NCBI RefSeq assembly: GCF_016801775.1
Contig: NZ_CP069004.1
Coordinates: 2,046,001 to 2,110,000 of the forward strand
Length of the DNA stretch: 64,000 nucleotides
From: Sulfitobacter mediterraneus
GTDB taxonomy: Bacteria; Pseudomonadota; Alphaproteobacteria; Rhodobacterales; Rhodobacteraceae
Reading direction: 5' to 3'
Shown here piece by piece: positions 44,632 to 62,958 of the stretch. The position numbers and the translations under genes were made by a program. Position 1 is the stretch's first letter; every line of letters starts with the position of its first letter. The notes below the pieces were generated by a model. The model was not told the origin of the DNA, did no database searches, and worked only from the letters and a program-made list of their open reading frames with translations.

Positions 44632-44634
44632 CAA

Positions 44635-45981
44635 TCAGACACCCCAAGCCGCGCATTTGCGATCCACGGTCTTGCGCGAAACGCCCAGCCGCCGCGCGGC
44701 CTCTGCCCGGTTGCCATCGCATTCATCCAGTATGTGCATGATGTGCCGTTGCATCACCAGATCAAGCGATTCAATGGCACGGGTTCCGGTGATCTGCCCC
44801 CCCCCGGCGAACTTGTCCGGAAAGGTGCCAAGGATCACCGAACGTTCAATCAGATTGCGCAATTCCCGCACGTTTCCGGGCCAATCGTAGCGGGCAAATT
44901 TCAGCAAGGTTTCTTCGTCAAGCTCAATCGCGGGCAGACCCAGCGTCTTGGAAAATTGCCGCAAGAACAGCGCCGCAAGTTCCGATATATCGCCTGCGCG
45001 GTCACGCAAGGGGGGCATCTCGACCTTCATCACGTTGATACGGTGATAGAGATCGGCCCGGAACCGCCCTTCGGCGACGGCCTGATCCAGATCGGCGTTG
45101 GTGGCGAACAGGAACCGCAGGTTCAGCGGAATTTCCCGCTCTGCCCCGACAGGGCGAATGCGCTGTTCTTCCAGCACCCGCAACAAGGCGGCCTGCACCT
45201 GTTCGGGCATTTGCACCACCTCATCAAGGAAAAGCGTCCCACCCTCGGCATGCAGGAACAGCCCATCACTGCGGCGGTCCTGATTGTCGACCAAACCAAA
45301 CAGTTCCTGCGCAATCCGGTCAGGAGAAATCACCGCGCAATTCACCGCAACAAAGGGTTTGTCGGCCCGGTCTGACAGCGAATGCAAGGTCCGCGCGGCC
45401 ACCTCTTTGCCCGTGCCGGTGGCGCCCGTAAACAAGACCGAGGTTGGCAATGGAGCAAGCCGTTCCAGAATATCGCGCACTTCGCTGATTGCGGCAGAAT
45501 TGCCCAAAAGCCGCCCCCGCGCATGGCTGCCTTCGCCAGCAAGCTCGTGTTTGAGCAGGAAATTCTCGCGCCGCAGATTCTGGCGGTCCAGCGCCCGTGC
45601 GGCGGCATTGAGGATCTGATTGGCGCGAAACGGCTTGAGTACAAAGTCTGCGACACCTGTCCGCACCGCTTTGATCGCGGTTTCCAGATCCGCATAGGCG
45701 GTGATCAGGATCGTATCGGAAAACAGCCCGACATTGCGTTGCTCGCGCACCCAGTCCAGCCCGGTTTTCCCCGGCATGATATTGTCGAGGATCACCAGAT
45801 CGAAGAAACTGCGATCCAGCAGCGCAGTAGCCTCGACGGTTGAGGCCGCTTGCTCCACCCGTTTGCAACGCGGCTTGAGGATCTTCATCAGAAAGTTGCG
45901 CATGCCAGGCTCATCGTCGATCACAAGGATCGAAGCATGGGCTAGGCTTTCGCCGTATTCGTCCGGTGCGGCAGGTTTCAT
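44635..45981 (-). CDS. NtrC-like response regulator without the GAFTGA loop
   Basis: 448 residues: receiver (about 15-130; acidic pocket Asp22-Asp23, phosphoacceptor Asp66 in VILDNIMP, Lys116), AAA+ domain (Walker A GATGTGKE 186-193, Walker B GGTLFLDE 247-254), and a Fis-type helix-turn-helix (AEAARRLGVSRKTVDRK). After ELFG (226-229) a sigma-54 activator normally has GAFTGA; here the loop is replaced by LVDNQDRRSDG. It therefore probably does not open sigma-54 promoters, like Rhodobacter NtrC. Its ATG overlaps the 45-residue gene upstream by 4 bases, placing it at the end of the formate dehydrogenase operon. Confidence 0.9.
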   Translation of the reverse strand: MKPAAPDEYGESLAHASILVIDDEPGMRNFLMKILKPRCKRVEQAASTVEATALLDRSFFDLVILDNIMPGKTGLDWVREQRNVGLFSDTILITAYADLETAIKAVRTGVADFVLKPFRANQILNAAARALDRQNLRRENFLLKHELAGEGSHARGRLLGNSAAISEVRDILERLAPLPTSVLFTGATGTGKEVAARTLHSLSDRADKPFVAVNCAVISPDRIAQELFGLVDNQDRRSDGLFLHAEGGTLFLDEVVQMPEQVQAALLRVLEEQRIRPVGAEREIPLNLRFLFATNADLDQAVAEGRFRADLYHRINVMKVEMPPLRDRAGDISELAALFLRQFSKTLGLPAIELDEETLLKFARYDWPGNVRELRNLIERSVILGTFPDKFAGGGQITGTRAIESLDLVMQRHIMHILDECDGNRAEAARRLGVSRKTVDRKCAAWGV

Positions 45982-46115
45982 TGGCTGCCTTTGCCCAATC
46001 TCACGGACGGGCCCGCGTTGACTTCTTCAGACGAAAATCCCGCCCTTTCCAGCCCGAAGCTGGCAACAACCGCAATAACAATGATGGCGGCGAAACTGGT
46101 GAACATCGCTTTCAT
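45978..46115 (-). CDS. 45-residue single-pass membrane peptide between the cytochrome and regulator genes
   Basis: It reads MKAMFTSFAAIIVIAVVASFGLE, one membrane helix, followed by a short hydrophilic tail of about 20 residues. AAAGGAG lies 8 bases before the ATG. The start overlaps the stop of the WD40-cytochrome gene by 4 bases, and its stop overlaps the regulator ATG by 4 bases, which is strong evidence that it is translated. Function unknown; it could anchor or regulate the redox partner. Confidence 0.65.
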   Translation of the reverse strand: MKAMFTSFAAIIVIAVVASFGLERAGFSSEEVNAGPSVRLGKGSQ

Positions 46116-47413
46116 GGCTTTGTCTCCTTTGTCTGGGAATGGATCTTTAGAAACTCTATCAAATCCCGCCGGTCCTGCGGCGCGGCAATGACCTGCATCG
46201 GCATTTTCGACCCGGGGATATAGTGATCTGGTCCCAGATCGAACAATTGGTCGATTGTCGCATCTGTCCAAACGATATCCGATCCTGCCAGCGTTGGCGA
46301 ATAGGGATAGCCCGGCAGGCGGCCCGCAGTGCGGCCAAAGACCCCGTACAGGGTCGGACCGGCCTTGCGCGAGGCACCGGCGTCAAGCGCGTGGCAGATC
46401 GAACATTTACGCATGAATTGCCGCTCTCCATTGGTCATCTCGCTGGCCTCTTTGAGAAAGGATCGCTCCTGCCCAATCGCAGGATCAAACTGGTCCATCA
46501 AAGCAATCGGCCAGCCATAGGCCAGGTCATCAAGCCCGCCCGCCCAGACCATCGCCCCATCCGGTGAAAACGCCAGCGCCCAGATCGGGCCTTGCCGCGT
46601 GGCACGAAAATCCTGTCGGATGCGCCAGGATCGGGTGTCCACCAGCATGATGTAGCCCTGCCCGTCACCCACCGCCAACAAGCCAGCACCGTCATGATAC
46701 ACCATGGACAGGATCGGCTTTCGGTCCAGGGTAAAGTCAGCCAAAGCTACGCCGGTGACTGTATCCAGAATGCGCGTGCCGCCGTCCACCGCGCCGTAAG
46801 CCAGCCAGCGGCCCTGCGGCCCCAGCGCCAGCTCATTCACGCCAAATCCGTGTTTCACCAATGGCCGCGGCTGTGCGTCTTTTGTCAGGTCAAACAACAG
46901 CACTTCGCCCTTCGTGGTCGCAGCAAACAGGCTGTCGCCACCATCCCCGAACACGATATCGTTCACACCGCTGTCGCGCAATTTCATGACACTACCACTG
47001 CCCTCTGCCAGCGGCCAAAGGCCAATGGTCCCGTCCCAACTGGCCGAGGCAATGAGCCCTCCATCGGGCGCAATTGCCAGAGCAGTCACTTTGCCTTTGT
47101 GCTGTCCGATGATCCGGCTCTGCGCGCCCTCCCAAAGCCGCACCGTAAAGTCATCCCCGGCCGAGACCACCCCCCCGTCTGGCAGGAATACAACTGCGTT
47201 CACCGCCGCCTCATGCCCCTCCAGCCATTGCGGAGTGCGTCCGTCCCAAAGGCCCACAGAATTGTCGAAACTGGCGGTGGCGACTTGCCCCCTGCTGGAT
47301 ACGGCCAGCCCCATAATCGGGCCGCCGTGCCCCTTGAGCGTGGTAAAGCTTTGCGCCAAGGCCGCGCCAGCGCAAAGCGTCACAATCAAAGACATCGTCG
47401 CAAAAAGCCGCAT
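46112..47413 (-). CDS. Periplasmic WD40 beta-propeller fused to cytochrome c
   Basis: 433 residues. A signal peptide spans 1-20 (MRLFATMSLIVTLCAGAALA). Residues 22-320 carry about seven WD40-like repeats (for example SFTTLKGHGGPIMGLAVSS, VTALAIAPDGGLIASAS, IWALAFSPDGAMVWAGG). The C-terminal 100 residues form a class I cytochrome c with CSICH at about 337-341, the proline-containing segment after it, and an axial Met in the GSKMPM motif near 400. It follows the cytochrome b subunit by 3 bases, so it likely links formate oxidation to other periplasmic electron carriers. Confidence 0.85.
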   Translation of the reverse strand: MRLFATMSLIVTLCAGAALAQSFTTLKGHGGPIMGLAVSSRGQVATASFDNSVGLWDGRTPQWLEGHEAAVNAVVFLPDGGVVSAGDDFTVRLWEGAQSRIIGQHKGKVTALAIAPDGGLIASASWDGTIGLWPLAEGSGSVMKLRDSGVNDIVFGDGGDSLFAATTKGEVLLFDLTKDAQPRPLVKHGFGVNELALGPQGRWLAYGAVDGGTRILDTVTGVALADFTLDRKPILSMVYHDGAGLLAVGDGQGYIMLVDTRSWRIRQDFRATRQGPIWALAFSPDGAMVWAGGLDDLAYGWPIALMDQFDPAIGQERSFLKEASEMTNGERQFMRKCSICHALDAGASRKAGPTLYGVFGRTAGRLPGYPYSPTLAGSDIVWTDATIDQLFDLGPDHYIPGSKMPMQVIAAPQDRRDLIEFLKIHSQTKETKP

Positions 47414-47416
47414 CGC

Positions 47417-48604
47417 CTATTCTGCCGGATGGGCCTTTTGCGGGCCATCTTTGCCCGCCTCTTTCATCTCATCCAACCAGATCGAATGGTGCTGATGCGC
47501 CCAGGCTTCATCCACCTCGCCGCTGCCCATGGCGTCATAGGCGCCCTCCATCCCGACCGAGCCGATATAGATATGCGCCAGAATGATCGCCATCAGAACA
47601 AATGCCATGATCGCGTGCCAACCTTGGGCAAACTGCATCTCTTCCTGCGGTGACAACATCACGGGCAAGGGCTCCATACCGACCAACCCTGGCAACCCAA
47701 GATCGTTGAGAATGGCAAAGGTCTTGGCAAACAGCGGCAGCTCATAGGGAAACAGAAGCGACACACCCGAAACGGCGATGGATGTACCGAACAGGATCAC
47801 CGACCAAAAGATCAACTTCTGTCCGGCGTTGAACTTCTTCGCCGGCGGATGGTTCTTGCCGATGATGCCGCCAAACTGACGCAGCCAAACAAGGTCAGTC
47901 CGGTTCGGGATGTTGTGAACCACCCACATCACAAAGATCATCACTAGCCCGATAATGAACGCCCAAGCCACGTTGTTGTGAATCCATTTCGATGCGTTCA
48001 GCAAGGTCGCATTCACCTCTCGGCCCAGATAGGGCGCGATAAAGACCCGCCCGAAGAGGGACACCAGCCCGGTCAGCCCCAGCAGGACAAACGATCCCGC
48101 CAGCAACCAGTGACCAAAGCGTTCAATCGCCTTGAACCGGGTCACTGTGCGGCCTGTCATCTCTTCGTCGATGCGGATGCGACCGCGCAGCAGATAGAAC
48201 AGCACCAGCGCCCCCAGCGTGCCGATCAAAAGCCAGCCGCCGTAGGTCCGCAGTGGCCCGTCGCGCCAGCTCAGCCATTTCATGCCGCCATCCTGCACCA
48301 GAACGCTGGCCACCTCACCACCCGCAGACACGCGGGTCTCGGCAGAGCCATAGCGGATCGCCCGCCAGACCTCTGGATCAGAGGTGCCCCCGATCGGGCC
48401 AAGCTGCGCCGCGCCCGCGACATCCGCCGGATTGCCCGTATCGCTGCGCATTGCGCTGTCATCCACAGGCTCGCCACGTTGACGGGCCAGAATATCGGCA
48501 AGGGTCTGTGCCCCGCCGGTGGCGCTGCGGTCAGGGGTTGTCTGTGCTTGCGCCGTCAGGCCAAGCATCAGGGAAAGGACGAGTGCGAGTGCCACGCGAA
48601 GCAT
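47417..48604 (-). CDS. Formate dehydrogenase gamma subunit (cytochrome b556 type)
   Basis: 395 residues from the ATG at 48604. A signal peptide (MLRVALALVLSLMLGLTAQAQ) and a 110-residue periplasmic region precede four to five transmembrane helices with heme b histidines (RFGHWLLAGSFVLLGLTGL, WIHNNVAWAFIIGLVMIFV, GWHAIMAFVLMAIILAHIY), the FdoI/FdnI arrangement extended at the N-terminus. It passes electrons from FdhB to quinone. The gap to fdhB (102 bases) contains two hairpins. Confidence 0.9.
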   Translation of the reverse strand: MLRVALALVLSLMLGLTAQAQTTPDRSATGGAQTLADILARQRGEPVDDSAMRSDTGNPADVAGAAQLGPIGGTSDPEVWRAIRYGSAETRVSAGGEVASVLVQDGGMKWLSWRDGPLRTYGGWLLIGTLGALVLFYLLRGRIRIDEEMTGRTVTRFKAIERFGHWLLAGSFVLLGLTGLVSLFGRVFIAPYLGREVNATLLNASKWIHNNVAWAFIIGLVMIFVMWVVHNIPNRTDLVWLRQFGGIIGKNHPPAKKFNAGQKLIFWSVILFGTSIAVSGVSLLFPYELPLFAKTFAILNDLGLPGLVGMEPLPVMLSPQEEMQFAQGWHAIMAFVLMAIILAHIYIGSVGMEGAYDAMGSGEVDEAWAHQHHSIWLDEMKEAGKDGPQKAHPAE

Positions 48605-48706: not shown

Positions 48707-49300
48707 TTAGCCACCCTTTTGGTCATAGGCCGTGCCCCAGCCCCATGCACCCGAGCCAAAGCCGCGTGCGACAACGCGCTCACGGTAGATCGCTGACACA
48801 ACATCGCCGTCCCCAGCCAAAAGCGCCTTGGTCGAACACATCTCGGCGCAGATCGGCAATTTGCCCTCTGCGATCCGGTTGCGGCCGTATTTGGCGAATT
48901 CGGCGGTGGAGTGGGTCTCTTCGGGACCACCCGCGCAGAAGGTACATTTGTCCATCTTGCCACGGCTGCCAAAGTTGCCCGCCTGCGGATACTGCGGCGC
49001 GCCAAACGGGCACGCATAGAAGCAATAGCCGCAACCGATGCACAGATCTTTGGAATGCAACACGACGCCTTCTTCGTTCTGGTAGAAGCAATCCACCGGA
49101 CAGACGGCCATACATGGTGCGTCCGAACAATGCATACAGGCCACCGACAGCGAACGTTCGCCCGGTTTGCCGTCATTGAGGGTCACCACGCGGCGGCGGT
49201 TGATCCCCCAGGGCACCTCATGCTCGTTCTTACAGGCGGTGACACAGGCGTTGCATTCAATGCAGCGTTCGGCGTCACAGAGGAACTTAGCTCTTGCCAT
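48707..49300 (-). CDS. fdhB: Formate dehydrogenase beta subunit (4Fe-4S)
   Basis: 197 residues with four [4Fe-4S] clusters: CIECNACVTACK, CMHCSDAPCMAVCP, CIGCGYCFYACP and CTFC...CAEMC. It lacks a signal peptide and is presumably exported bound to the TAT-carrying alpha subunit. Length is short because the C-terminal membrane helix of E. coli FdnH is missing. It follows fdhA by 12 bases. Confidence 0.93.
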   Translation of the reverse strand: MARAKFLCDAERCIECNACVTACKNEHEVPWGINRRRVVTLNDGKPGERSLSVACMHCSDAPCMAVCPVDCFYQNEEGVVLHSKDLCIGCGYCFYACPFGAPQYPQAGNFGSRGKMDKCTFCAGGPEETHSTAEFAKYGRNRIAEGKLPICAEMCSTKALLAGDGDVVSAIYRERVVARGFGSGAWGWGTAYDQKGG

Positions 49301-49312
49301 TTCTCGTTCTCC

Positions 49313-52207
49313 TTATGCTGCGCTGATTTTGCAAAGAGTGGTCTTGGTCTCTTGCATTTGCGTTACGGAATCATAGCCATAGGTCTGGGCTGTGTTTGAA
49401 CTTTCACCCAGGACATAGGGGTCTGCACCGTCGGGGTATTTGTCCCGCAGATCCTGACCCTGGAAATGTCCGCCAAAGTGGAACGGCATAAAGGCAACGC
49501 CTTCACCGACCCGCTCTGTGACCATCGCCATAACCTTGACCTTGCCGCCCTCTGGCCCTTCGACCCAGACCTGTGCGCCATCCCGCAGCCCGATGTTGTT
49601 GGCATCACGCGGGTTGATCTCGACAAACATGTCTTGCTGAAGCTCGGCCAGCCAGGGATTGGAACGGCTTTCCTCGCCCCCGCCCTCATATTCGACCAAA
49701 CGGCCGGAGGTGAGGACAATCGGATACTCCTTGGAAAAGTCGTTTTTCTGGATCGAGGCATAGAGCGTCGGCAGGCGGTAGTCCTGACGATCCTCATAGG
49801 TCGGATAATCCGCCACCAGATCGCGCCGCGGCGTATAGAGCGGCTCGCGGTGCAATGGCACCGGATCGGGGAAGGTCCACACAACCGCACGCGCCTTGGC
49901 ATTCCCGAAGGGCGCACATTCATGCTTGATCGCGACCCGCTGAATCCCGCCCGAAAGGTCGGTTTTCCAGTTGGTCTTGGGACCGGCCACCGCGTCAATG
50001 GCAGCGCGTTCATCATCCGTCAGATCACTGTCCCAGCCCAGATCCATCAGCATCTGCATCGTGAATTCGGGATAGCCGTCCTGAATTTCCGAGTTCTTGC
50101 TGTAGACCCCTTCGGCCAGAAGGTTATCGCCATCGCGTTCCACACCAAAGCGGGCGCGGAATGTCAGACCGCCCTCAGACACGGGTTTGGACATGTCATA
50201 CAGGTTCGGCGTGCCGGGATGGTTCATCTCGGCGGTGCCCCAACACGGCCATGGCAGACCATAGTAATCGCCATCTGCCGGACCACCGATGGCCTGCAAG
50301 GTGGTGCGGTCAAAGGTATGCTGATTTGCCATGTGCATCTTGAGCCGTTCCGGGCTTTGTCCGGTGTAACCGATGGTCCAAAGACCGCGGTTAAACTCGC
50401 GCGTGACACTTTCGACATTGGGAGTCACATCGTCTTCCATTTCGATATTGCGGAAGAAACGATCGGACCAGCCGAACTTCTTGGCGAACAGGCCTATGAT
50501 CTCATGGTCGGTTTTGGATTCGAACAGCGGGTCCACAACCTTGTCGCGCCACTGGAACGACCGGTTTGATGCGGTGACCGAGCCACGCGTTTCAAACTGG
50601 GTTGCAGCAGGCAACAGGTAAACACCGTCCGTGCGATCATGCAAAACAGCAGAAACCGTTGGATAGGGGTCAATCACGACCAGCATATCCAGCTTTTCCA
50701 TCGCTGTCTTCATCTCGGGACCGCGCGTCTGGCTGTTCGGGGCGTGGCCCCACAGAACCATGGCCCGCACCTTGTTGGGCTGGTCCATGTTGCCTTCGTC
50801 CTCAAGGACGCCGTCAATCCAGCGCGAGACCGGAATGCCCTTGAGATTTTGCAGGCTCTTGTCCTTGCCATCTGCGCCAGTGATCTTGTCGAACTGACCG
50901 GCCAGCCATTCGGGATCTTCCTCCCAGACCCGCGCCCAATGCGCCCAGGCCCCTTTGGAAAGTCCGTAGTAACCCGGCAGGGTATGGGACAGAACACCAA
51001 GGTCGGTCGCACCCTGTACGTTGTCGTGGCCGCGGAAGATGTTGGTGCCGCCACCGCTTGTGCCCATGTTCCCCAGCGCCAGCTGAAGGATGCAATAGGC
51101 ACGGGTGTTGTTGTTGCCATTGGTGTGCTGCGTGCCGCCCATGCACCAGATCACAGTGCCGGGGCGATTGTTGACCATGGTCCGCGCCACGCGGCGCAGC
51201 TGAGAACCCGGCGCGCCCGTGACACGCTCGACCTCTTCGGGGTTCCATTTGGCCACTTCCTCGCGGATCTGGTCCATGCCCCAGACACGGGTGCGGATGA
51301 ACTCTTTGTCCTCCCAACCGTTTTCGAAGATGTGATAGAGAATACCCCAAACCAGAGCCACATCCGTACCGGGACGGAACCGCACATATTCGTCGGCATG
51401 GGCCGCCGTGCGGGTGAACCGCGGATCGCAGACGATCAGAGGCGCGTTGTTCTGTTCCTTGGCTTTCAACACGTGCAACAGCGAGACAGGATGCGCCTCG
51501 GCCGGGTTGCCGCCGATAATGAAGATCGCCTTGGAATTGTGGATGTCATTGTAGGAGTTGGTCATCGCGCCATAGCCCCAGGTGTTTGCAACACCGGCAA
51601 CTGTGGTCGAGTGACAGATCCGGGCCTGGTGGTCCACGTTGTTGGTGCCCCAATAGGCAGCAAACTTGCGGAACAAATAGGCCTGTTCGTTGCTGTGCTT
51701 GGCCGAACCCAGCCAATAGACACTGTCAGGGCCGCTTTCTTCGCGGATGTTCATCATGCCGTCGCCGATCTCGTTGATCGCCTGTTCCCAGCTGATGCGC
51801 TTCCACTCACCGCCCTCTTTCTTCATCGGATACTTCAGACGGCGTTCGCCGTGCGCGTGTTCGCGCACCGACGCCCCCTTGGCGCAATGGGCACCAAGGT
51901 TGAACGGGCTGTCCCAGCCGGGCTCCTGCCCGACCCAAACACCGTTTTGCACCTCGGCCACAACGGTACAGCCCACCGAACAATGGGTGCAGACCGATTT
52001 GATCGTTTCAACAGCCGCGCTCGCAGCGGATGCCGCGCTGGCTTGCGTCACCGTACCGCCGGTGGCGCTGATTGCGGCAAGACCACCAATGGCCAGACCG
52101 CTGCCGCGCAGGAACGCACGGCGGTCGACGGATTTCTCCGCGACGTCAGACAGGATACTTGTCCGCTGGGGGCGTCTCGCTACCCCGTTGGTCTTTTTCC
52201 TAAGCAT
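49313..52207 (-). CDS. fdhA: TAT-exported formate dehydrogenase alpha subunit (Mo/W-bisMGD)
   Basis: 964 residues. TAT signal: SVDRRAFLRG at 27-35 with a following hydrophobic run. One [4Fe-4S] (Cys 73, 76, 80, 108) and the relay Lys110 precede the catalytic ARICHSTTVAG, Cys198 and His199. The codon is TGT, so this is a Cys enzyme, not a selenocysteine one. IIGGNPAEAHPV and the C-terminal region DQVWVEGPEGGKVKV style block bind the pterins. It oxidises formate to CO2 in the periplasm. The nearby tungstate importer suggests the metal may be W. Confidence 0.95.
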   Translation of the reverse strand: MLRKKTNGVARRPQRTSILSDVAEKSVDRRAFLRGSGLAIGGLAAISATGGTVTQASAASAASAAVETIKSVCTHCSVGCTVVAEVQNGVWVGQEPGWDSPFNLGAHCAKGASVREHAHGERRLKYPMKKEGGEWKRISWEQAINEIGDGMMNIREESGPDSVYWLGSAKHSNEQAYLFRKFAAYWGTNNVDHQARICHSTTVAGVANTWGYGAMTNSYNDIHNSKAIFIIGGNPAEAHPVSLLHVLKAKEQNNAPLIVCDPRFTRTAAHADEYVRFRPGTDVALVWGILYHIFENGWEDKEFIRTRVWGMDQIREEVAKWNPEEVERVTGAPGSQLRRVARTMVNNRPGTVIWCMGGTQHTNGNNNTRAYCILQLALGNMGTSGGGTNIFRGHDNVQGATDLGVLSHTLPGYYGLSKGAWAHWARVWEEDPEWLAGQFDKITGADGKDKSLQNLKGIPVSRWIDGVLEDEGNMDQPNKVRAMVLWGHAPNSQTRGPEMKTAMEKLDMLVVIDPYPTVSAVLHDRTDGVYLLPAATQFETRGSVTASNRSFQWRDKVVDPLFESKTDHEIIGLFAKKFGWSDRFFRNIEMEDDVTPNVESVTREFNRGLWTIGYTGQSPERLKMHMANQHTFDRTTLQAIGGPADGDYYGLPWPCWGTAEMNHPGTPNLYDMSKPVSEGGLTFRARFGVERDGDNLLAEGVYSKNSEIQDGYPEFTMQMLMDLGWDSDLTDDERAAIDAVAGPKTNWKTDLSGGIQRVAIKHECAPFGNAKARAVVWTFPDPVPLHREPLYTPRRDLVADYPTYEDRQDYRLPTLYASIQKNDFSKEYPIVLTSGRLVEYEGGGEESRSNPWLAELQQDMFVEINPRDANNIGLRDGAQVWVEGPEGGKVKVMAMVTERVGEGVAFMPFHFGGHFQGQDLRDKYPDGADPYVLGESSNTAQTYGYDSVTQMQETKTTLCKISAA

Positions 52208-54710: not shown

Positions 54711-56660
54711 ATGTCTAAATCATTGATTTTATGCAATTGCTCGAACACCCAAACCATAGACGCGGAGGGCCTCACATCGGCCTCCGGCCTGCCCTGCTCA
54801 AAGGTGCATTCCGCCCTCTGCACGGTCCAGTCAAATGCTGCTGCAGAGGCGATCTCGACCGGGGATGCAATTTTTTGCTGTGCCCAAGAATCGGCTCTTT
54901 TTGCAGAGCTTGCAGACAGTCTGGACGCTCCTGCCCCCGCCACTCTAGACCTGCGCGACAGGGCAGGTTGGAGCGCAGATGACGCCCCAAAACTACCCAA
55001 AATGGCCGCGCTGGTGGCCGAGGCGACCTTACCCGCCGCCACCGCCAAGACCCTTGATGTCGTTTCTGAGGGGCTTTGCCTGATCCTCGCGCGGGACGAA
55101 ACGGCCCTGCAAATTGCCGCGCAGCTTTGCCAATATCTGAGCGTGACAGTCCTGTTGCCGACCCCTCCCGATGGATTGGATAGCCGCAATTTCGATGTTG
55201 TTGTGGGCCGCTTGAAAGCCGCAAAAGGATCGCTGGGACAATTTGATGTCACCATCGACGGGCTGCAAATTCCCGATCCTGCCGGTCGCGGCGATATGGT
55301 GTTCTCTGATCCGCGAAATGGCGGGCGTTCGCAATGCGATATCCTGCTGGATCTGCGCGGTGAGACACCCCTGTTTCCGGCCCATGAGAAACGCGAGGGT
55401 TATCTCCGCCCCGACCCCGGCAACCCATTGGACGTGGCCGCATCGGTGCTCGAAGCATCGCATCTGACCGGCACCTTTGAGCAGCCCCTCTATATAAAGG
55501 CCGAACCTCTGCTTTGCGCCCATTCGCGGGCGGAGCAGACCGGTTGCACACGCTGTCTGGATGTCTGCCCAACCGGGGCGATCACGCCGGATGGCGACCA
55601 TGTGACGGTTGATCCGCTGATCTGCGCGGGCTGCGGCGCTTGCGCATCGCTTTGTCCCTCCGGCGCGATCAGCTATGACGCCCCGCCCGCAGATCTGACC
55701 TTCCGCCGCATTCAAACATTGGCCAAAGCCTATCTGGATGCGGGCGGTCAAAATCCGCGCCTGTTGACTGTGAATGAAACCGGCGCCGAGATGATCCGCC
55801 TTGCCGCGCGATACGGCAACGGCCTGCCTGCCAATGTGATCCCTCTGGAAGTCGACGCCCTCGCCACCATTGGCCATGCTGAAATGCTGGCCGCATTGGC
55901 CGCAGGGTTCTCAGAGGTGACTGTCCTGCTCACCCCGAAATCAGACCGCGATGTTATCATCGGTGAAGCAGCCCTTGCCCGCGCCATGGGCGGTGATCGG
56001 ATCACCCTGCTGGACACCAGTGACCCTGATGTTTTGTCCGATCAATTGTTCGCGGCACAAACCACCCCTACCGACGCAACCCCCCAGCGCCCGATGGGCA
56101 CGCGGAGGCAAATTGCCCGTACCGCCGCCAAGGCGTTGAACCCGGATGCATCACAGATCGCATTGCCGGACGATGCCCCTTATGGCGCGGTTTTGGTGGA
56201 CACTGATGCCTGCACGCTTTGCCTCTCGTGCATTTCGCTGTGCCCTTCTGGTGCGTTGGGCGACAACCCCGACCTGCCGCAACTGCGTTTTCAGGAGGAC
56301 GCATGCCTGCAATGCGGGCTCTGCGCCAATGTCTGCCCCGAAGACGCAATCACCTATGAACCACGCATGAATTTGGACAACAGCGCCCTGGAACAGGTGA
56401 TCCTGAACGAGGAAGAACCCTTTGCCTGCGTTGAATGTGGTGCGCTGTTTGGTGTGAAATCCACCATCGAGAAAATTACGGAAAAGCTGGCGGGCAAACA
56501 TTCCATGTTCAAGACCGGCGATGCCGCACGGATGATCCAGATGTGCGACAATTGCAGGGTCAACGCGCAATATCACGCCAAAAACAGCCCCTTTGCAGGC
56601 GCTGAGCGACCCCGACCCAGAACCACGGCGGACTACCTCAGCAAGCGCAAGGATCACTGA
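54711..56660 (+). CDS. Polyferredoxin-like 4Fe-4S protein, 649 residues
   Basis: It begins MSKSLILCNCSNTQTIDAEGL, an N-terminal Cys motif, followed by a region like the heterodisulfide reductase/ferredoxin hybrids in formate dehydrogenase clusters. Two ferredoxin pairs are visible: CTRCLDVCPTGAI with CAGCGACASLCPSGAI (about 278-320), and CTLCLSCISLCPSGAL with CLQCGLCANVCPEDAI (about 500-555). A further ACVECGALFG and MCDNCRVN lie near the C-terminus. It has no signal and is cytoplasmic. It may donate electrons to or from the fdh system. The upstream frame to 54516 was rejected. Confidence 0.85.
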   Translation: MSKSLILCNCSNTQTIDAEGLTSASGLPCSKVHSALCTVQSNAAAEAISTGDAIFCCAQESALFAELADSLDAPAPATLDLRDRAGWSADDAPKLPKMAALVAEATLPAATAKTLDVVSEGLCLILARDETALQIAAQLCQYLSVTVLLPTPPDGLDSRNFDVVVGRLKAAKGSLGQFDVTIDGLQIPDPAGRGDMVFSDPRNGGRSQCDILLDLRGETPLFPAHEKREGYLRPDPGNPLDVAASVLEASHLTGTFEQPLYIKAEPLLCAHSRAEQTGCTRCLDVCPTGAITPDGDHVTVDPLICAGCGACASLCPSGAISYDAPPADLTFRRIQTLAKAYLDAGGQNPRLLTVNETGAEMIRLAARYGNGLPANVIPLEVDALATIGHAEMLAALAAGFSEVTVLLTPKSDRDVIIGEAALARAMGGDRITLLDTSDPDVLSDQLFAAQTTPTDATPQRPMGTRRQIARTAAKALNPDASQIALPDDAPYGAVLVDTDACTLCLSCISLCPSGALGDNPDLPQLRFQEDACLQCGLCANVCPEDAITYEPRMNLDNSALEQVILNEEEPFACVECGALFGVKSTIEKITEKLAGKHSMFKTGDAARMIQMCDNCRVNAQYHAKNSPFAGAERPRPRTTADYLSKRKDH

Positions 56661-57409
56661 TGATCAAGCGGTGCCCCCAGATCGGCTGGCTCCAGCGCGG
56701 CAACATAAGCGATGATTGCCTCCAGATCGTCCAATGTCATCGCGACCGGAACGATGGGCGACGGGCGATCCACCGGAAAAGGGTCGGTGACCTCCTTAAC
56801 CTGCGTGAAAGCGGGATGCGGGTTAAGAGCAAAAAACGCGGCAAAGCGGTCTTCCCAATTTCCCAAGCTGCGCAGCGCAAAGAAGGACGGTGTCGATCCG
56901 ATGGCATTCATCCGGTCCGCCGCAACCACCACATGACAGCGCCCACACAATCCCCGCGCCTTGACGCGGCCCGCCACGGCGTCCCCGTTATAGGTCACGG
57001 TTTCAGCACTGACTTGTGCCTGCGTCGGCAGGCTGAACAAGGCGGCACCGTCTATTTGAAACCCTGTCACAGTCCTGCGTCCGACCTCAGAGTCAATCCA
57101 ATCGCCAAACCGCGCAGCCCCCGCGTGGCCGCCTTCCGGCACTGCAAAATGCCAGCGCTGCCCCAACCCGTCAAAGACCGGATTGCCCTCCGGGCCAAAA
57201 CTGGCCTCGGCCTGCGCGGGATCTTCGACCAGTTCGATCCTTACCTGCGTTTTGAGAGAAAACCGTGGAAGCAGATATTTCAGCAGCCCGCTTTCGATCA
57301 GATCGGGCGGCGCATAGAGGCGAAAATTTCTTTCATCTGCAACGGCTTGTCCGGCCCATATGGCAATGGAAACCAGACCCGGAACGAGATGACGCAGGCG
57401 TAAAAACAT
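56654..57409 (-). CDS. Cytochrome c with an N-terminal half-TupA (tungstate-binding) lobe
   Basis: 251 residues from the ATG at 57409. Signal peptide 1-24. Residues 28-61 (LYAPPDLIESGLLKYLLPRF...) align with TupA 23-56, and 76-126 (GNPVFDG...FGDWIDSEVG...FQIDGAALF) align with TupA 208-262, whose end reads EGWLVSDTAKTL...YKINGETLF. This is one lobe of the binding protein with the other lobe removed. The heme motif CGRCH is at 155-159 and an axial Met is probably in PVAMTLDDLE. It overlaps the convergent polyferredoxin end by 7 bases. Family not recognised otherwise. Confidence 0.75.
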   Translation of the reverse strand: MFLRLRHLVPGLVSIAIWAGQAVADERNFRLYAPPDLIESGLLKYLLPRFSLKTQVRIELVEDPAQAEASFGPEGNPVFDGLGQRWHFAVPEGGHAGAARFGDWIDSEVGRRTVTGFQIDGAALFSLPTQAQVSAETVTYNGDAVAGRVKARGLCGRCHVVVAADRMNAIGSTPSFFALRSLGNWEDRFAAFFALNPHPAFTQVKEVTDPFPVDRPSPIVPVAMTLDDLEAIIAYVAALEPADLGAPLDHQ

Positions 57410-57466: not shown

Positions 57467-57658
57467 ATGAGCGATGATTTCAACATGTCGATGCGCAAGT
57501 TTCTCAAACAGGTCGGAGTGACCTCGCAGCAAGCCATCGAAGAGGCAATGCGCAGCGCTGAAACCGGCGGCAAGGAATTCACGGCGCGGGCCGTCGTCAC
57601 CATCGACGGGCTGGACATGGAACATGTCGTGACCGGCACCATCAAAGGTCAGGACTGA
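57467..57658 (+). CDS. DUF6494-like small protein
   Basis: 63 residues: SDDFNMSMRKFLKQVGVTSQQAIEEAM then TGGKEFTARAVVTIDGLDMEHVVTGTI. It matches, as I recall, the DUF6494 family, small cytoplasmic proteins beside Mrp-type Fe-S carriers. AGGAAAGAGC precedes the ATG. It lies 57 bases from the divergent cytochrome c gene and starts the rightward operon. Confidence 0.75.
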   Translation: MSDDFNMSMRKFLKQVGVTSQQAIEEAMRSAETGGKEFTARAVVTIDGLDMEHVVTGTIKGQD

Positions 57659-57661
57659 CCC

Positions 57662-58729
57662 TTGAGCGTGACACGTGAGGCCGTTCTTGAGGCCCTGAAA
57701 ACCATCGAAGATCCCACCGGCAAGGGCGACATTGTCTCAGCCGGAGTGGTGCGGGCGTTGAACGTCGATGGCGGTAATGTCCGTTTTGTGCTTGAGATTG
57801 ATCCAAGCCGCGCTGACGCCTATGGGCCGACCCGCGATCAGGCCGAGGCATTGGTCAAAGGTGTCGCAGGTGTTGAAAACCTATCGGTGGTTCTAACCGG
57901 ACACAGCGCCCAACCGGCACCGCCTGATCTGAAACTGGGTCACAAATCCGAACCCAAGGGCCCCGAGAAAATCCCCGGTGTGAACCACATCATCGCCATT
58001 GCCAGCGGTAAGGGTGGCGTAGGCAAATCCACGGTTTCGGCCAATCTGGCCTGCGCATTGGCCGCGCAGGGCCGACGCGTTGGCCTCTTGGATGCAGATG
58101 TCTACGGCCCAAGCCAGCCGCGCATGTTGGGCGTGTCGGGCCGCCCCGCCAGCCCGGATGGCAAGACCATTCTGCCGATGCGCAATCACGGGGTCACGAT
58201 GATGTCGATTGGTCTGATGACCAACGACGATCAGGCGGTGGTCTGGCGCGGGCCAATGTTGATGGGCGCTTTGCAACAGATGATGATGCAGGTGCAATGG
58301 GGCGCCTTGGATGTGCTGCTTGTGGATCTGCCACCCGGCACCGGTGACGTGCAGATGACCCTGGCCCAAAAGGCGCAGGTGGACGGCGCAATCATTGTCT
58401 CGACACCGCAGGATGTCGCCCTGATCGACGCCCGCAAAGGCATTGATATGTTCCAGCAATTGAACGTGCCGATTGTGGGAATGATTGAAAACATGTCCAC
58501 GCATATCTGTTCCAACTGCGGACATGAGGAGCATGTCTTTGGACATGGCGGCGTTGCTAACGAGGCGGCCAAGCTCAATGTGCCCTTGCTGGCGGAAATC
58601 CCTCTGCATCTTGATATCCGGCTGGCCGCAGACGGCGGTGCGCCGATTGTTGTTTCCGCACCGGACAGTGCGCAGGCCAAGGGCTTTGTCGATGTGGCGC
58701 AGGCGCTTATTGCCAAAGGTATCGCATGA
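57662..58729 (+). CDS. Mrp/ApbC-type Fe-S cluster carrier ATPase
   Basis: 355 residues with a TTG start 3 bases after the DUF6494 stop (a GTG two codons later is an alternative). N-terminal DUF59/MIP18 domain (about 1-85), then the deviant Walker A GKGGVGKSTVSAN (about 117-129), LLDADVYGPSQPRML, VDLPPGTGDVQ and the Cys pair ICSNCGHEEHVFG (about 281) that holds the bridging Fe-S cluster at the dimer interface. It probably delivers clusters to the formate dehydrogenase and polyferredoxin. It overlaps the next gene by 4 bases. Confidence 0.92.
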   Translation: MSVTREAVLEALKTIEDPTGKGDIVSAGVVRALNVDGGNVRFVLEIDPSRADAYGPTRDQAEALVKGVAGVENLSVVLTGHSAQPAPPDLKLGHKSEPKGPEKIPGVNHIIAIASGKGGVGKSTVSANLACALAAQGRRVGLLDADVYGPSQPRMLGVSGRPASPDGKTILPMRNHGVTMMSIGLMTNDDQAVVWRGPMLMGALQQMMMQVQWGALDVLLVDLPPGTGDVQMTLAQKAQVDGAIIVSTPQDVALIDARKGIDMFQQLNVPIVGMIENMSTHICSNCGHEEHVFGHGGVANEAAKLNVPLLAEIPLHLDIRLAADGGAPIVVSAPDSAQAKGFVDVAQALIAKGIA

Positions 58730-59430
58730 CCGAGGTGATTTTCCCTCCATTAATGTCCGGTCTTGCCGTCACCGGGCGCGAAGATCCGTTTCACACCGCC
58801 TGTCTGCAAGCGGCGGTAGGCTGTGACGCTGGTCTGGTGGTGTACAACCTGTCACCCGATAGCTTGAGGGCGGCCATTGTATTTGCCCCCGAAGTGCCCC
58901 TGCAGGATGCTTTGGCGATGTTGCCGGTCTGCGGCGTTGGCTTTCAAAACGCGCTTGGGGCGCTGGCCCCGCCGGAGGTTGCCGTACATCTGGAATGGGG
59001 CGGCGGTCTGCGGATCAACGGTGCGAAATGCGGCCAGTTGCGTGTCGCCGCCGGTACGAAAGCACCGGGCGAAGTGCCCGATTGGCTGGTTGTCGGGCTT
59101 TCCCTGCCGCTTTGGCCTAACAACGATGAAACCGGCCACACCCCGGATCAGACCGCCCTATATGCCGAAGGCTGCTCAGATGTGGAGGCGCCAAGGCTAC
59201 TGGAAAGTTGGGCGCGGCACACGCTGAACTGGATCGCCCGCTGGGACGAAGAAGGCGTCAAACCTGTGCATGGGGAATGGCGCGGTTTGGTGCATGGCAT
59301 GGGCGAAGAGATCACCCAAAACGGCCAAACAGGTAGCTTTCTCGGCGTCGATGAGCGCTTTGGTATGCTGCTGAGGCACAAGGGCGATACAACCCTCATC
59401 CCGCTCACCACCCTGTTGGAGGATCTGTGA
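58726..59430 (+). CDS. Degenerate biotin/lipoate--protein ligase-like protein (DUF4444)
   Basis: 234 residues. The fold is that of BirA/LplA, but the adenylate loop GRGRRGR is absent, and the substrate Lys motif reads EWGGGLRINGAKCGQLRV, a variant of the WPND...K signature with WGGGL. The C-terminal part (RWDEEGVKPVHGEWRGLVHGMG and the tail) is the DUF4444 extension. It is translationally coupled to the Fe-S carrier (ATGA) and to DUF6505 (1-base overlap). Catalysis may be lost; a role in the Fe-S or cofactor pathway is inferred from context. Confidence 0.8.
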   Translation: MTEVIFPPLMSGLAVTGREDPFHTACLQAAVGCDAGLVVYNLSPDSLRAAIVFAPEVPLQDALAMLPVCGVGFQNALGALAPPEVAVHLEWGGGLRINGAKCGQLRVAAGTKAPGEVPDWLVVGLSLPLWPNNDETGHTPDQTALYAEGCSDVEAPRLLESWARHTLNWIARWDEEGVKPVHGEWRGLVHGMGEEITQNGQTGSFLGVDERFGMLLRHKGDTTLIPLTTLLEDL

Positions 59431-59909
59431 TGCAACTGGCCCGCGCCATTCATTTTGACGAAAGCGATACCCGTGTCTACGCCAATGCCGCCCGGACGGG
59501 CGAATGGTGTATCTCGGGTGGTTTTGAATTTTCAGACTGGTCGGAGGCCGATCTGTCCGGCAAGGCGCGGCAGGCCTTTGCAAACGGATGGTTTGGTTTG
59601 GAAACCTCGGGCCGGGTGACGTTTGTCGCGGTGACGCAGGTTGAGGCGGCAGAGATTGAAACGCTCACTGATCTGCTCGCCCAGCATTTTGTCACATACT
59701 ACGGCGCCCCGGATGCCGCTGCCGCCCACCCCGTGGCCGCAGAGGAAATTCGCCAGATGCTGGATCTATGTGACGGGCATGACGCCAACACCCTGCTGAC
59801 GGTTGCGCGTGAACTGACGCCTTCGGGCGTGCGCGAAGCCTACCGAGTGATCGAGCCCCAGGGCGCAGGGCTTGAGCAATTTGCGGTACATGGGGATCTT
59901 GAGGGGTAA
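59430..59909 (+). CDS. DUF6505-like protein, last gene of the Fe-S accessory operon
   Basis: 159 residues from the ATG at 59430, which shares a base with the preceding stop. Segments such as RVYANAARTGEWCISGGFEF and WFGLETSGRVTFVAV are conserved in this family, whose function is unknown. It lacks Cys clusters and membrane helices. A strong terminator follows. Confidence 0.8.
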   Translation: MQLARAIHFDESDTRVYANAARTGEWCISGGFEFSDWSEADLSGKARQAFANGWFGLETSGRVTFVAVTQVEAAEIETLTDLLAQHFVTYYGAPDAAAAHPVAAEEIRQMLDLCDGHDANTLLTVARELTPSGVREAYRVIEPQGAGLEQFAVHGDLEG

Positions 59910-59972: not shown

Positions 59973-60776
59973 TCATTGCATCGCGTTGAATACGAAAAGT
60001 GTTTCGCCGTTGATCTTGTAATCATTGATCAGCGTCTTTGCGGTGTCTGACACCAGCCACCCCTCCAACTTAAGCGCCAGATCATGCTTCACATGGGCAT
60101 GTTTTTCCGGGTTCACGGGCAGATAGGCATATTGGTTGAACAGTACCGGGTCGCCCGCAAAGATCAGCGCCAGATCAGCCTTATTGCCGAAGTTGAGCCA
60201 GCTGGCCCTGTCCGACATGATATAGGCGTCCATCCCCGCTGCCGTGTTCAGCGCAGCGCCCATGCCTGCACCCACGGCCTTGTACCACCCCCCGAACGTC
60301 GCCGGATCAAGGCCTGCTGCGTTCCAAAGGCTCAGTTCCTTTTTGTGAGTGCCACTGTCGTCACCGCGGCTGACAAAAGGGGCCTTGGCATTTGCTATCA
60401 TCGAAAGCGCCTCTGCTGCGGATGCAGCGCTACCCGCACTCGCCGTATCCGATTTCGGGCCGATAAAGACAAAGTCGTTATACATGATCTCGCGCCGGTG
60501 GGTGCCATTGCCAGCAGCCAGAAATTTCTCTTCAGCCTTGCGGGAATGTACCAGGATGGCATCAACATCCCCCGCCGCGCCAAGCTTGAGCGCCTGGCCC
60601 GTGCCCACCACCAGCAGCTGCACCTCAAGGTCCAGATCGCGCTTGATCGCAGGCACCAGAATGTCCGACAGGCCGGAGTTGTGAAAGGAGGTCGTGACCG
60701 CCATCTTGATGTCATCGGCCCATGCCGCGCCGGTCATCGCCAATGTGGTCACAGCCGCCATCATCAGGGTCTTCAT
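59973..60776 (-). CDS. tupA: Tungstate ABC transporter, periplasmic binding protein
   Basis: 267 residues. Signal peptide 1-21 (ending AAWA). The TupA signature TTSFHNSGLSDIL (28-40) and VLVHSRKAEEKF-like VDAILVHSRKAEEKFLAAG, then FVSRGDDSGTHKKELSLW and the end NDYKINGETLFVF are diagnostic of the high-affinity tungstate-specific group, distinguishing it from ModA. It binds tungstate in the periplasm and delivers it to TupB. It is the last gene of its operon here, whereas tupA usually leads. Confidence 0.93.
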   Translation of the reverse strand: MKTLMMAAVTTLAMTGAAWADDIKMAVTTSFHNSGLSDILVPAIKRDLDLEVQLLVVGTGQALKLGAAGDVDAILVHSRKAEEKFLAAGNGTHRREIMYNDFVFIGPKSDTASAGSAASAAEALSMIANAKAPFVSRGDDSGTHKKELSLWNAAGLDPATFGGWYKAVGAGMGAALNTAAGMDAYIMSDRASWLNFGNKADLALIFAGDPVLFNQYAYLPVNPEKHAHVKHDLALKLEGWLVSDTAKTLINDYKINGETLFVFNAMQ

Positions 60777-61486
60777 TCTACAATATCTCCTTTTAGAAAC
60801 GCGCGGGCCTGCGCGGTATTGGGGGTGTCAAAGAACGTTTCTGCGGGACCGCGATCATGGATCTTGCCGCCCAGAAGGAACACCACTTCGCTGGCCAAAC
60901 GCCGCGCTTGGCCCATGTCATGGGTGGACATGACCAACCGCGTGCCTGCGGCGGCAGCAGATTGCAAAATGGCCTCAACGTCGCGCATCGCCCGCCCATC
61001 GAGGGAGGCGCAGGGTTCATCCAGAAACAGCACATCGGGCGAGCGGATCAAAGCACGGCCTAACGCCAGCTTCTGCCGCTCCCCTCCCGACAGGGCGGTC
61101 GCCGGACGCGTCAGGGCATCACCAAGGCCGACTTTCTGTGCCCAGAGTTCGGCCTGTGCCCGCGCGGTCTTGCGGTCCACACCCGTCAGACGCAGGGGAT
61201 AGGCCAGATTGTCCCGCACTGACCGGCGCAGCATCACCGGGGTCTGGAACACAAACGCCTGTCTGCGCCGCGCCTCACTCTCGTCACAGGTCCATGTCAC
61301 CCGGCCCGCAGAGATCCGGGCAATCCCGTGCAGCAATCGCAGGAGCGAGGTTTTGCCGGCCCCGTTGGGCCCGATCACCACGGTGATGCCTTCGGCCTCA
61401 AGACGCAGGTCAACAGGGCCAACCAGCACTTTCCCGCCACGCCGGGTCACCGCGCCTTCAACAATCAGAGGGAACATTGCACTCAC
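60773..61486 (-). CDS. tupC: Tungstate ABC transporter, ATP-binding protein
   Basis: 237 residues. Walker [14 protein letters not shown], signature TALSGGERQKLALGRALI, Walker B VLFLDEPCASLD and switch His in STHDMGQAR are complete. It overlaps tupB and tupA by 4 bases each and powers tungstate uptake. Confidence 0.93.
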   Translation of the reverse strand: MSAMFPLIVEGAVTRRGGKVLVGPVDLRLEAEGITVVIGPNGAGKTSLLRLLHGIARISAGRVTWTCDESEARRRQAFVFQTPVMLRRSVRDNLAYPLRLTGVDRKTARAQAELWAQKVGLGDALTRPATALSGGERQKLALGRALIRSPDVLFLDEPCASLDGRAMRDVEAILQSAAAAGTRLVMSTHDMGQARRLASEVVFLLGGKIHDRGPAETFFDTPNTAQARAFLKGDIVE

Positions 61487-62187
61487 CAGCGGCCCTCCTT
61501 CTCGGTCTGGGTCAACCAGTGGATCACCAGATTGACGGCAATCGCCATTGCGATCAGGACAAAACCAAGGGCGAGGGCCAGCGCAAAATCGCCCTTGCCG
61601 GTTTCCAGTGCAATTGCCGTGGTCAAGACCCGTGTGTGGTGGTCGATATTGCCGCCCACCACCATGATCGCGCCGACCTCACCGATGGCCCGGCCAAAGC
61701 CTGCCAATGCCGCCGTCAGCAAGGCCCGCCGCCCATCCCATAGGAGGGTCATTATCCGCTGGGTGTGGGTCGTATTCATTGAAATCAGCAGGTCATGGTA
61801 ATCCGACCACAATTCGCGAAGGGCTTGATGCGCGATGGAGGCAATCAGCGGCACAATGATGATCACCTGCGCAATGATCATGGCCGTGGGCGTGAACAGC
61901 AGGCCAAAAACCCCAAACGGGCCAGAGCGGCTGAGCATGATATAGACAATCAGACCGACCACCACAGGCGGCAGCCCCATTAACGCATTCAGTACCGCAA
62001 TGGTCAGTCGCCGTATCCGAAACCGGCGCACGGCCAGCAAGGCGCCCAATGGCAATGCGATCAGCGATGCAATCACCAGGGCCGTCAGCGTCACCTGAAG
62101 TGACCGCAACGTGATCTCAACCAGGTCCGCATCCAGCGAGACAAGCATATAGAAAGCCTGGGACAACCCGCCCCATAAATCCGACAT
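61483..62187 (-). CDS. tupB: Tungstate ABC transporter, permease
   Basis: 234 residues with about five helices. It carries the ModB/TupB-type EAA loop LLTAALAGFGRAIGEVGAIMVVGGN and begins MSDLWGGLSQAFYMLVSLD. It opens the tup operon; a 16-base palindrome lies 23-38 bases upstream of its start. Confidence 0.92.
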   Translation of the reverse strand: MSDLWGGLSQAFYMLVSLDADLVEITLRSLQVTLTALVIASLIALPLGALLAVRRFRIRRLTIAVLNALMGLPPVVVGLIVYIMLSRSGPFGVFGLLFTPTAMIIAQVIIIVPLIASIAHQALRELWSDYHDLLISMNTTHTQRIMTLLWDGRRALLTAALAGFGRAIGEVGAIMVVGGNIDHHTRVLTTAIALETGKGDFALALALGFVLIAMAIAVNLVIHWLTQTEKEGRW

Positions 62188-62355: not shown

Positions 62356-62958
62356 CTAAAGCCCGATCACCTCGTCCTCACGGATCACGGCAGGATCGTA
62401 GGCCTTTCGGGCGAACACCTCGCGCACCATTGGCTCAAAATGTTCTAAGGATTTTGACGGATATTCCGGATCAAAGGATGCCTGATCCCAACGTTCACAA
62501 AATGCCGCGCAGGTGTCGAAACAGGGGTGATCCCTGAACCGGTCACGGGCATCTTTGTCCCAGCCGTAATGATGCGCGTAGTAGACCATCTGAAAAATCC
62601 CGTGATGCTCCACCGTCCAGGCCACCTCCCAGCGGACAAAGGGGCGGATCACCTCGGCGGAAAAACGGTCATGGTTCTGCGGGGCCAGCCCATCACCAAT
62701 GTCATGCAGGAGCGCTCCAACGATCCAGTCGATGTCGGCGCCTTCCGCCTCGGCCCGGCTGGCCGATTGCAAGCCATGTTCCAGTCGGGTGATCTGATAC
62801 CCCTCTAGCGTCGCCTCGCCCTGGCGACGCAGCTCCTCCAGAACCCGATCAGCGGTCAGGCCCAAATAGGGTTTCTCCAATTCATGCAACAGCAGGTATT
62901 CTTCCTTGGTGCCGTCCTTCATCTGAGTGAAAGACACCTTTGGATTTGCATCTGTCAT
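62356..62958 (-). CDS. HD-domain protein, PhnZ/TmpB-like oxygenase or phosphohydrolase family
   Basis: 200 residues. The metal-binding HD motif is in LEHGLQSASRAEAEGAD and ALLHDIGDGLAPQNHDRF, with a later VEHHGIFQMVYYAHHYG and the C-terminal FDPEYPSKSLEHFEPMV block that is close to the di-iron HD oxygenases cleaving aminohydroxyphosphonates. Whether it is such an oxygenase or a nucleotide hydrolase cannot be told. AAGGGAGAG precedes the start. It has no clear link to the tup operon, 168 bases away. Confidence 0.72.
   Translation of the reverse strand: MTDANPKVSFTQMKDGTKEEYLLLHELEKPYLGLTADRVLEELRRQGEATLEGYQITRLEHGLQSASRAEAEGADIDWIVGALLHDIGDGLAPQNHDRFSAEVIRPFVRWEVAWTVEHHGIFQMVYYAHHYGWDKDARDRFRDHPCFDTCAAFCERWDQASFDPEYPSKSLEHFEPMVREVFARKAYDPAVIREDEVIGL

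Follow-up and report, generated by a model that had tools for sequence, protein, structure and literature searches.

What does half of a tungstate-binding protein do at the front of a cytochrome c, and why does the gene for such a protein lie beside a formate dehydrogenase? This question is raised by one gene in a 64,000-nucleotide stretch of Sulfitobacter mediterraneus DNA, which is referred to below as the window. A preliminary description of this stretch had seen in the gene half of TupA joined to a c-type heme domain next to a Mo/W-type formate dehydrogenase, and had proposed that the protein could join metal or anion sensing to electron transfer. Our analysis supports the architecture and the neighbourhood; the sensing proposal is treated below together with the ligand contacts.

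Architecture of the protein

The gene occupies positions 56654..57409 of the minus strand, an open frame from the start ATG at 57409 to the stop that comprises 251 codons plus the stop codon; coordinates, strand and frame had been given correctly. Residues 1-24 (57338..57409, minus; ...GQAVA, then DE) look on inspection like a signal peptide with a predicted cleavage site, and the structure model has a helix at residues 3-21 within it. A TupA-type lobe A spans residues 26-129 (57023..57334, minus) and a monoheme cytochrome c domain residues 138-251 (56657..56998, minus), in which the heme attachment motif CGRCH, already recognized in the preliminary description, is found at residues 155-159 (56933..56947, minus). 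We are highly confident about the anatomy: the protein is a monoheme c-type cytochrome, predicted to be exported, whose N-terminal domain is a TupA-type lobe A and from which lobe B is absent.

The single window protein has no match in Pfam and NCBIfam at E<=1, and relatives at E<=1e-3 number 2147 database proteins. Five plasmid records carry a relative, four of them labelled hypothetical protein and one c-type cytochrome; a scan of viral contigs found no relative of the fusion.

The N-terminal domain and TupA

The relationship to TupA is firm because a family profile was used; the single sequence gives only a weak match. In the single-sequence PDB search the best hit was 3muq (E 0.12), although the two pieces of this weak match already fall on both ends of the 3muq chain. 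A profile of 50 relatives of the fusion, compared with all PDB sequences, returned 3muq (2.7e-5), 3lr1 (7.3e-4), 5my5 (0.0099), 3cvg (0.016) and 3kn3 (0.046) as its top five. Of these, 5my5 and 3lr1 are TupA, 3cvg is labelled a putative metal-binding protein, and 3muq and 3kn3 are to be classed as TupA according to the excerpted text of PMC5517513. No other known family obtained a strong score.

When the N-terminal domain of the 50 relatives was aligned with 35 TupA sequences by hhalign, two separate and collinear blocks emerged, with E-values that apply to a single profile-profile comparison. Residues 24-65 (57215..57340, minus) match TupA 18-59 (E 4.4e-10), residues 88-127 (57029..57148, minus) match the TupA C-terminus at 219-263 (E 1.6e-10), and residues 66-87 occupy the place of TupA 60-218. 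The two TupA matches described earlier are thus real and collinear, with one correction: the register of the first block was off by one, as Ser40 pairs with TupA Ser34 and hence residue 28 with TupA 22, not 23.

TupA lobe A is built from both chain ends, A2-R76 plus Y201-E251 (PMC5517513, excerpted text). The structure model shows one alpha/beta domain ahead of the heme domain, in which the TupA fold is kept at high confidence, and residues 26-129 of the model align with 5my5 over 104 residues (chain residues 2-250). The N-terminal domain therefore has a binding-protein fold and corresponds to one lobe with the other absent, as had been claimed. Foldseek alone gave no match at E<=0.001 (best was the LysR-type regulator AphB at 6.7e-3, with 3muq at 1.1e-2 and 3lr1 at 1.9e-2), and VIA-align, which covered Foldseek's top 1000 chains, ranked TupA first. 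Each of the 18 loci (L013-L030) that were fetched in the class survey because of a lobe-side match encodes a TupA, as judged by BLAST to the window TupA, and the N-domain profile matched at least two places in every one.

One would argue that a short alpha/beta domain can resemble TupA by chance, and the weak single-sequence match and the Foldseek result taken alone would agree with this. However, the two collinear profile matches, the TupA-type chains at the head of the all-PDB sequence search and the first rank of TupA by VIA-align refute this notion, and the probability that we leave to it is practically nil.

Loss of the tungstate contact positions

The fusion shares with TupA (D. alaskensis 5my5, G. 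sulfurreducens 3lr1, V. parahaemolyticus 3muq) the fold and topology of lobe A as well as the positions SG, LP.F, W104, G121 and F125. It differs in having a cytochrome at its C-terminus and in lacking lobe B, the two-lobe ligand cleft and the Thr-Thr-Ser columns. The excerpted text of PMC5517513 places a TTTS motif in TupA lobe A, and Arg118, Thr124 and Asp170 in lobe B. Among the TupA sequences from the surveyed loci, 51 of 52 have TT[TS] before SG (the exception, from L082, looks frame-shifted or diverged), and the contact columns read T in 98%, T in 98% and S in 94% of the 52 rows. TT[ST] stands at the aligned columns in none of the 217 fusions; Pro is found in the first column in 187 of them, and the window protein has Pro-Pro-Asp (residues 34-36; 57302..57310, minus). 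The lobe B region with Arg118, Thr124 and Asp170 is absent from the fusion in the profile match. Two basic residues show the opposite behaviour: Arg49 and Lys53, the ends of RFSLK (residues 49-53; 57251..57265, minus), are each fixed in 217 of 217 fusions, whereas TupA is variable at both columns, with Lys at column 53 in 16 of 52 sequences.

Judged from these columns, the fusion lobe probably no longer binds tungstate, and the proposed joining of metal or anion sensing to electron transfer is not supported. A sensor in which an anion such as tungstate or molybdate is still bound by the lobe, with coupling to the heme, could draw on the TupA fold, which is kept in the high-confidence model, and on a homodimer, which could in principle rebuild a cleft. 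However, the contact columns are lost in every fusion and TupA 60-218, with the lobe B residues named above, has no counterpart in the profile match, so we regard such a sensor as very unlikely.

The heme domain

C155, C158 and H159 are present in 217 of 217 fusions, and CGRCH sits after helix 144-154 of the structure model. This domain was modelled poorly and without heme (block means 34-84 in the fusion, mean 78 alone). PF00034 does not match the window protein; 51 of 55 family members match it at E<=0.1. The CxxCH and helix pattern is common to the fusion and the class I cytochromes c (PF00034), including lone forms, that is, cytochromes without the lobe, in Nisaea and others. The fusion family differs from class I cytochromes c in its distal side: the aligned family has no invariant Met that would serve as a conserved distal ligand, and has instead an invariant Pro-His, whose His198 (56816..56818, minus) is present in 217 of 217 fusions and in 55 of 55 rows of the family alignment, lone forms included. 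On the basis of this conservation, His198 is a candidate distal heme ligand. Lone forms have C.RCH, STPSF-like and PH motifs in common with the fusion, and several of their loci also the fdh or tup neighbourhood.

Genomic neighbourhood in the window

The fusion gene converges on a gene for a 4Fe-4S protein (54711..56660, plus; start uncertain; Pfam Fer4 families), the 3' ends of the two overlapping, and diverges from a DUF6494 gene (57467..57658, plus; PF20104, 99 bits) with 57 nt between the starts. Further on the plus strand lie the genes for a presumed Mrp-type ATPase (57662..58729), a biotin/lipoate ligase-like protein (58726..59430; PF16917, 270 bits) and a DUF6505 protein (59427..59909; PF20115, 267 bits). 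A complete TupA is encoded at 59973..60776 on the minus strand (PF12849, 110 bits; best match NF041772, 194 bits, below the cut-off of 400), at a measured distance of 2.56 kb that agrees with the 2.5 kb given before. Beside it, in tup order and on the same strand, are open reading frames which presumably encode the TupC ATPase (60773..61486) and the TupB permease (61483..62187). The minus strand also carries, on the other side of the fusion gene, the presumed formate dehydrogenase catalytic subunit FdhA (49313..52207), the presumed iron-sulfur subunit FdhB (48707..49300), which served as the survey marker, and the cytochrome b561-type subunit FdhC (47417..48601; PF01292, 81 bits). TorD-like chaperone, DUF3306 and DUF3305 genes belong to the cluster as well, some of these names being likewise our assumption. 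DUF3305 and DUF3306 occur in fdh operons according to the excerpted text of PMC4464133, in which the fusion cytochrome is not mentioned.

Three further genes or gene pairs of the window deserve a remark. A WD40 beta-propeller-cytochrome c gene (46112..47413, minus; PF00400 and PF00034) lies 3 nt after fdhC, and a relative of it adjoins fdhC in at least 35 of the 52 named loci with fdhC found, a lower bound because many loci end there. Its product, like the fusion, joins a cytochrome c domain to an unrelated domain in the same cluster; it has a beta-propeller instead of the TupA lobe, and a Met-containing GSKMPM stretch closes its heme domain. It is a candidate companion of the fusion, most loci ending close to fdhC. 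A Cache-type sensor histidine kinase and a sigma-54-type response regulator adjoin the fdh cluster at 42673..45981 and are possible regulators of it. An HD-domain protein beside tupB (62356..62958, minus) has a weak, below-cut-off likeness to phosphonate-degradation HD-domain oxygenases.

Conservation of the locus

In 248 genomes of the window's family we found 91 fusions and 2 lone forms, the lobe being present in 91 of the 93 strong matches of this sample. FdhB of the window's type, defined by 88% identity or more, occurs in 110 of the 248 genomes (8 more have only a 76-84% relative), and these 110 are divided into 89 with the fusion, 2 with a lone form elsewhere and 19 with neither. Conversely, 89 of the 91 fusion genomes have a matching FdhB; of the other two, one (G356) has fdhA on the contig of the fusion. 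With E<=1e-30 as the threshold for presence, 90 of the 91 fusion genomes have a TupA, as do all 21 FdhB-positive genomes that lack the fusion and 51 of the 130 genomes in which FdhB is missing. The presence of TupA in 109 of 110 FdhB-positive genomes suggests that the formate dehydrogenase of this FdhB type is tungsten-dependent, but is uninformative about the fusion as such.

Gene order was read from the best 80 of 236 matches, which comprise 79 named fusion loci (Roseovarius, Marivita, Sulfitobacter, Litoreibacter, Shimia and Tritonibacter among them) and 1 lone form. The loci reach at most 10 kb to each side and often less, many of them ending early, and include two pairs from single assemblies (L093/L101 and L133/L137). 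Within the 79 fusion loci of these best 80 matches, Mrp is present in 74 and is the divergent neighbour in all 74; the 4Fe-4S gene is present in 74 and convergent within 400 nt in 71 of these. The preliminary description had asked whether the fusion always lies beside fdh and tup genes: an fdhA relative is inside 67 of the 79 loci, but TupA inside only 13, so that tup genes are not a general neighbour. In the window's family the fusion gene is a member of a conserved formate dehydrogenase cluster. L160, from Oceaniglobus trochenteri, has the fusion together with the Mrp half and tupBCA; the fdh half is missing there, and fdhB is on another contig. In G154, of the same genus as the window, TupB and TupC without TupA had made the fusion a candidate replacement, which was dropped as TupA lies elsewhere (C1:537587).

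The clusters of 17 of the 19 FdhB-positive genomes with neither form were fetched (all except G406 and G433). In 12 of the 17, the 4Fe-4S gene is directly followed by DUF6494 or, once, by Mrp; the other five (L181, L182, L183, L184 and L187) end early or are organised otherwise. Complete formate dehydrogenase clusters thus occur without the fusion, which is therefore accessory and not strictly needed. In the phylum sample 10 of 398 genomes match at E<=1e-12: 7 carry the fusion, and all of these belong to the window's family; the other 3 carry lone forms and belong to its class. In the class sample the full-length fusion occurs in 5 of 289 genomes, of which one (G288) belongs to another family; statements about its absence elsewhere reach no further than these two samples.

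Evolution of the fusion

A midpoint-rooted tree of 112 heme domains over 118 columns, for which the tool warns of few columns and long branches, puts 99 fusions together with 3 lone forms in a single clade (support 100/98). Outside it stand eight lone forms plus two more that form a pair (entry P0123 is the same sequence as L032). The tool counts three changes, consistent with a single gain of the lobe by an older lone cytochrome and two losses. The lone form of L031 has the same place in a complete fdh cluster and is nested among the fusions (97/64 inside 100/94), and therefore represents a loss of the lobe; those of L072 and L073 nest among the fusions less firmly, and the DNA fetched around these two contains no fdh genes. 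Among the outside lone forms, L032, L034, L195 and L198 sit among fdh or tup genes, L032 adjoining tupBCA, whereas the fetched DNA of L033, L035, L196 and L197 has no fdh or tup neighbours. L199-L202, weak heme-side matches with neither fdh nor tupA genes, were left out. At L195 (9165..11840) the lone form, tupB, tupC and tupA follow one another in that order on the same strand, with roughly 60 nt between the first two; DUF3306, DUF3305 and 4Fe-4S genes come further on, and the fetched stretch contains no fdh subunit genes. A lone form standing just before tupBCA suggests that the tie of the cytochrome to tungstate uptake is older than the fusion.

The unrooted tree of lobes and TupA (117 columns, no outgroup) separates fusions and TupA fully (100/100). 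The fusions of L070 (3179..4288) and L071 (5478..6335) have a longer stretch between the lobe blocks than the window protein, and are possible intermediates or later insertions. At L037 (6525..7370) a second TupA-like protein beside tupABC reads TTTTVEESGL where the neighbouring TupA reads STTSTDNSGL.

The lobe is under selection and evolves faster than the heme domain. Mean pairwise identity is 52% for the lobe and 65% for the heme domain. dN/dS was obtained for 76 of 79 coding sequences in 363 pairs; the medians over all pairs are 0.55 for the lobe and 0.29 for the heme domain, with dS near saturation. Six close pairs, taken from 25 listed pairs and all sharing L093, give 0.07-0.24 and 0.03-0.11, respectively.

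Discussion

What, then, is the lobe for? Our preferred reading, to which we would give somewhat less than an even chance, takes it for the docking module of a cytochrome that is accessory to the formate dehydrogenase system. The lobe, without binding tungstate, would dock the cytochrome onto a partner, with the fixed Arg49 and Lys53 positions as a candidate docking surface. It would hold the heme against this partner, for which the periplasmic formate dehydrogenase complex or its cytochrome b subunit is the most likely candidate, and the heme (His159, probably with His198) would pass electrons to or from it in the service of turnover or maturation. Such a cytochrome would be accessory, since otherwise complete clusters occur without it. 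Docking is the least demanding account because the fold persists while the ligand contacts are lost, two basic residues have become fixed, and the genes around the fusion stay the same. Against it count the faster evolution of the lobe, its loss at least once (L031) and the presence of the enzyme system without the fusion in 12 of 17 fetched clusters. The WD40-cytochrome c encoded right after fdhC could be the true electron partner instead.

The same observations could be read in favour of a lobe that has no specific partner, a relic or just a spacer for folding: it changes faster than the heme domain, has been lost at least once and belongs to a gene that is dispensable as a whole. However, a relic would hardly be expected to persist in 91 of 93 strong matches, to show dN/dS of 0.07-0.24 in the close pairs or to fix two residues that TupA does not fix, and we find this explanation rather unlikely. 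It could also be that the lobe replaces TupA in docking on the TupBC permease, tungstate uptake then being tuned by the redox state of the cytochrome. The lobe is TupA-like, TupA accompanies the fusion in 90 of 91 genomes, and lone forms stand about 60 nt before tupB at L195 and beside tupBCA at L032. Yet FdhB-positive genomes that lack the fusion have TupA just as often (21 of 21), TupA lies inside only 13 of the 79 named fusion loci (best 80 of 236 matches), and a single lobe offers half of the usual docking face; thus this role is unlikely. Improbable, in our estimate, is a related possibility in which the receptor lobe acts as an address tag: the cytochrome would engage TupB, or a formate dehydrogenase under assembly, and match tungstate supply or cofactor loading to the electron flow through the probably tungsten-dependent enzyme.

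For the preferred docking reading an analogy, and only that, is provided by XoxG and XoxJ of methanol dehydrogenase operons, a cytochrome c and a periplasmic-binding-protein-type protein that work with a single periplasmic dehydrogenase; according to PMC7391723 (excerpted text), XoxJ interacts with XoxF1 and may activate it. XoxG and XoxJ are two separate proteins and act with another dehydrogenase, whereas the fusion is one chain. No description of a TupA-lobe/cytochrome c architecture was found in searches of an open-licence library, in line with the earlier remark that it is undescribed.

The fusion is a clean natural case of a two-lobe binding protein that was cut to one lobe, stripped of its ligand contacts and still kept, in about four fifths (89 of 110) of the sampled genomes with the window's formate dehydrogenase type in one large bacterial family. 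Proteins labelled, for example, hypothetical protein or cytochrome c domain-containing protein obtain an architecture from it, and it ties a cytochrome, tungstate uptake and formate oxidation together. The fusion is a small electron-carrying protein of marine bacteria with half of a tungstate-catching protein at its front, and it seems that an old transport part has been reused here as an attachment piece beside a formate-oxidising enzyme.
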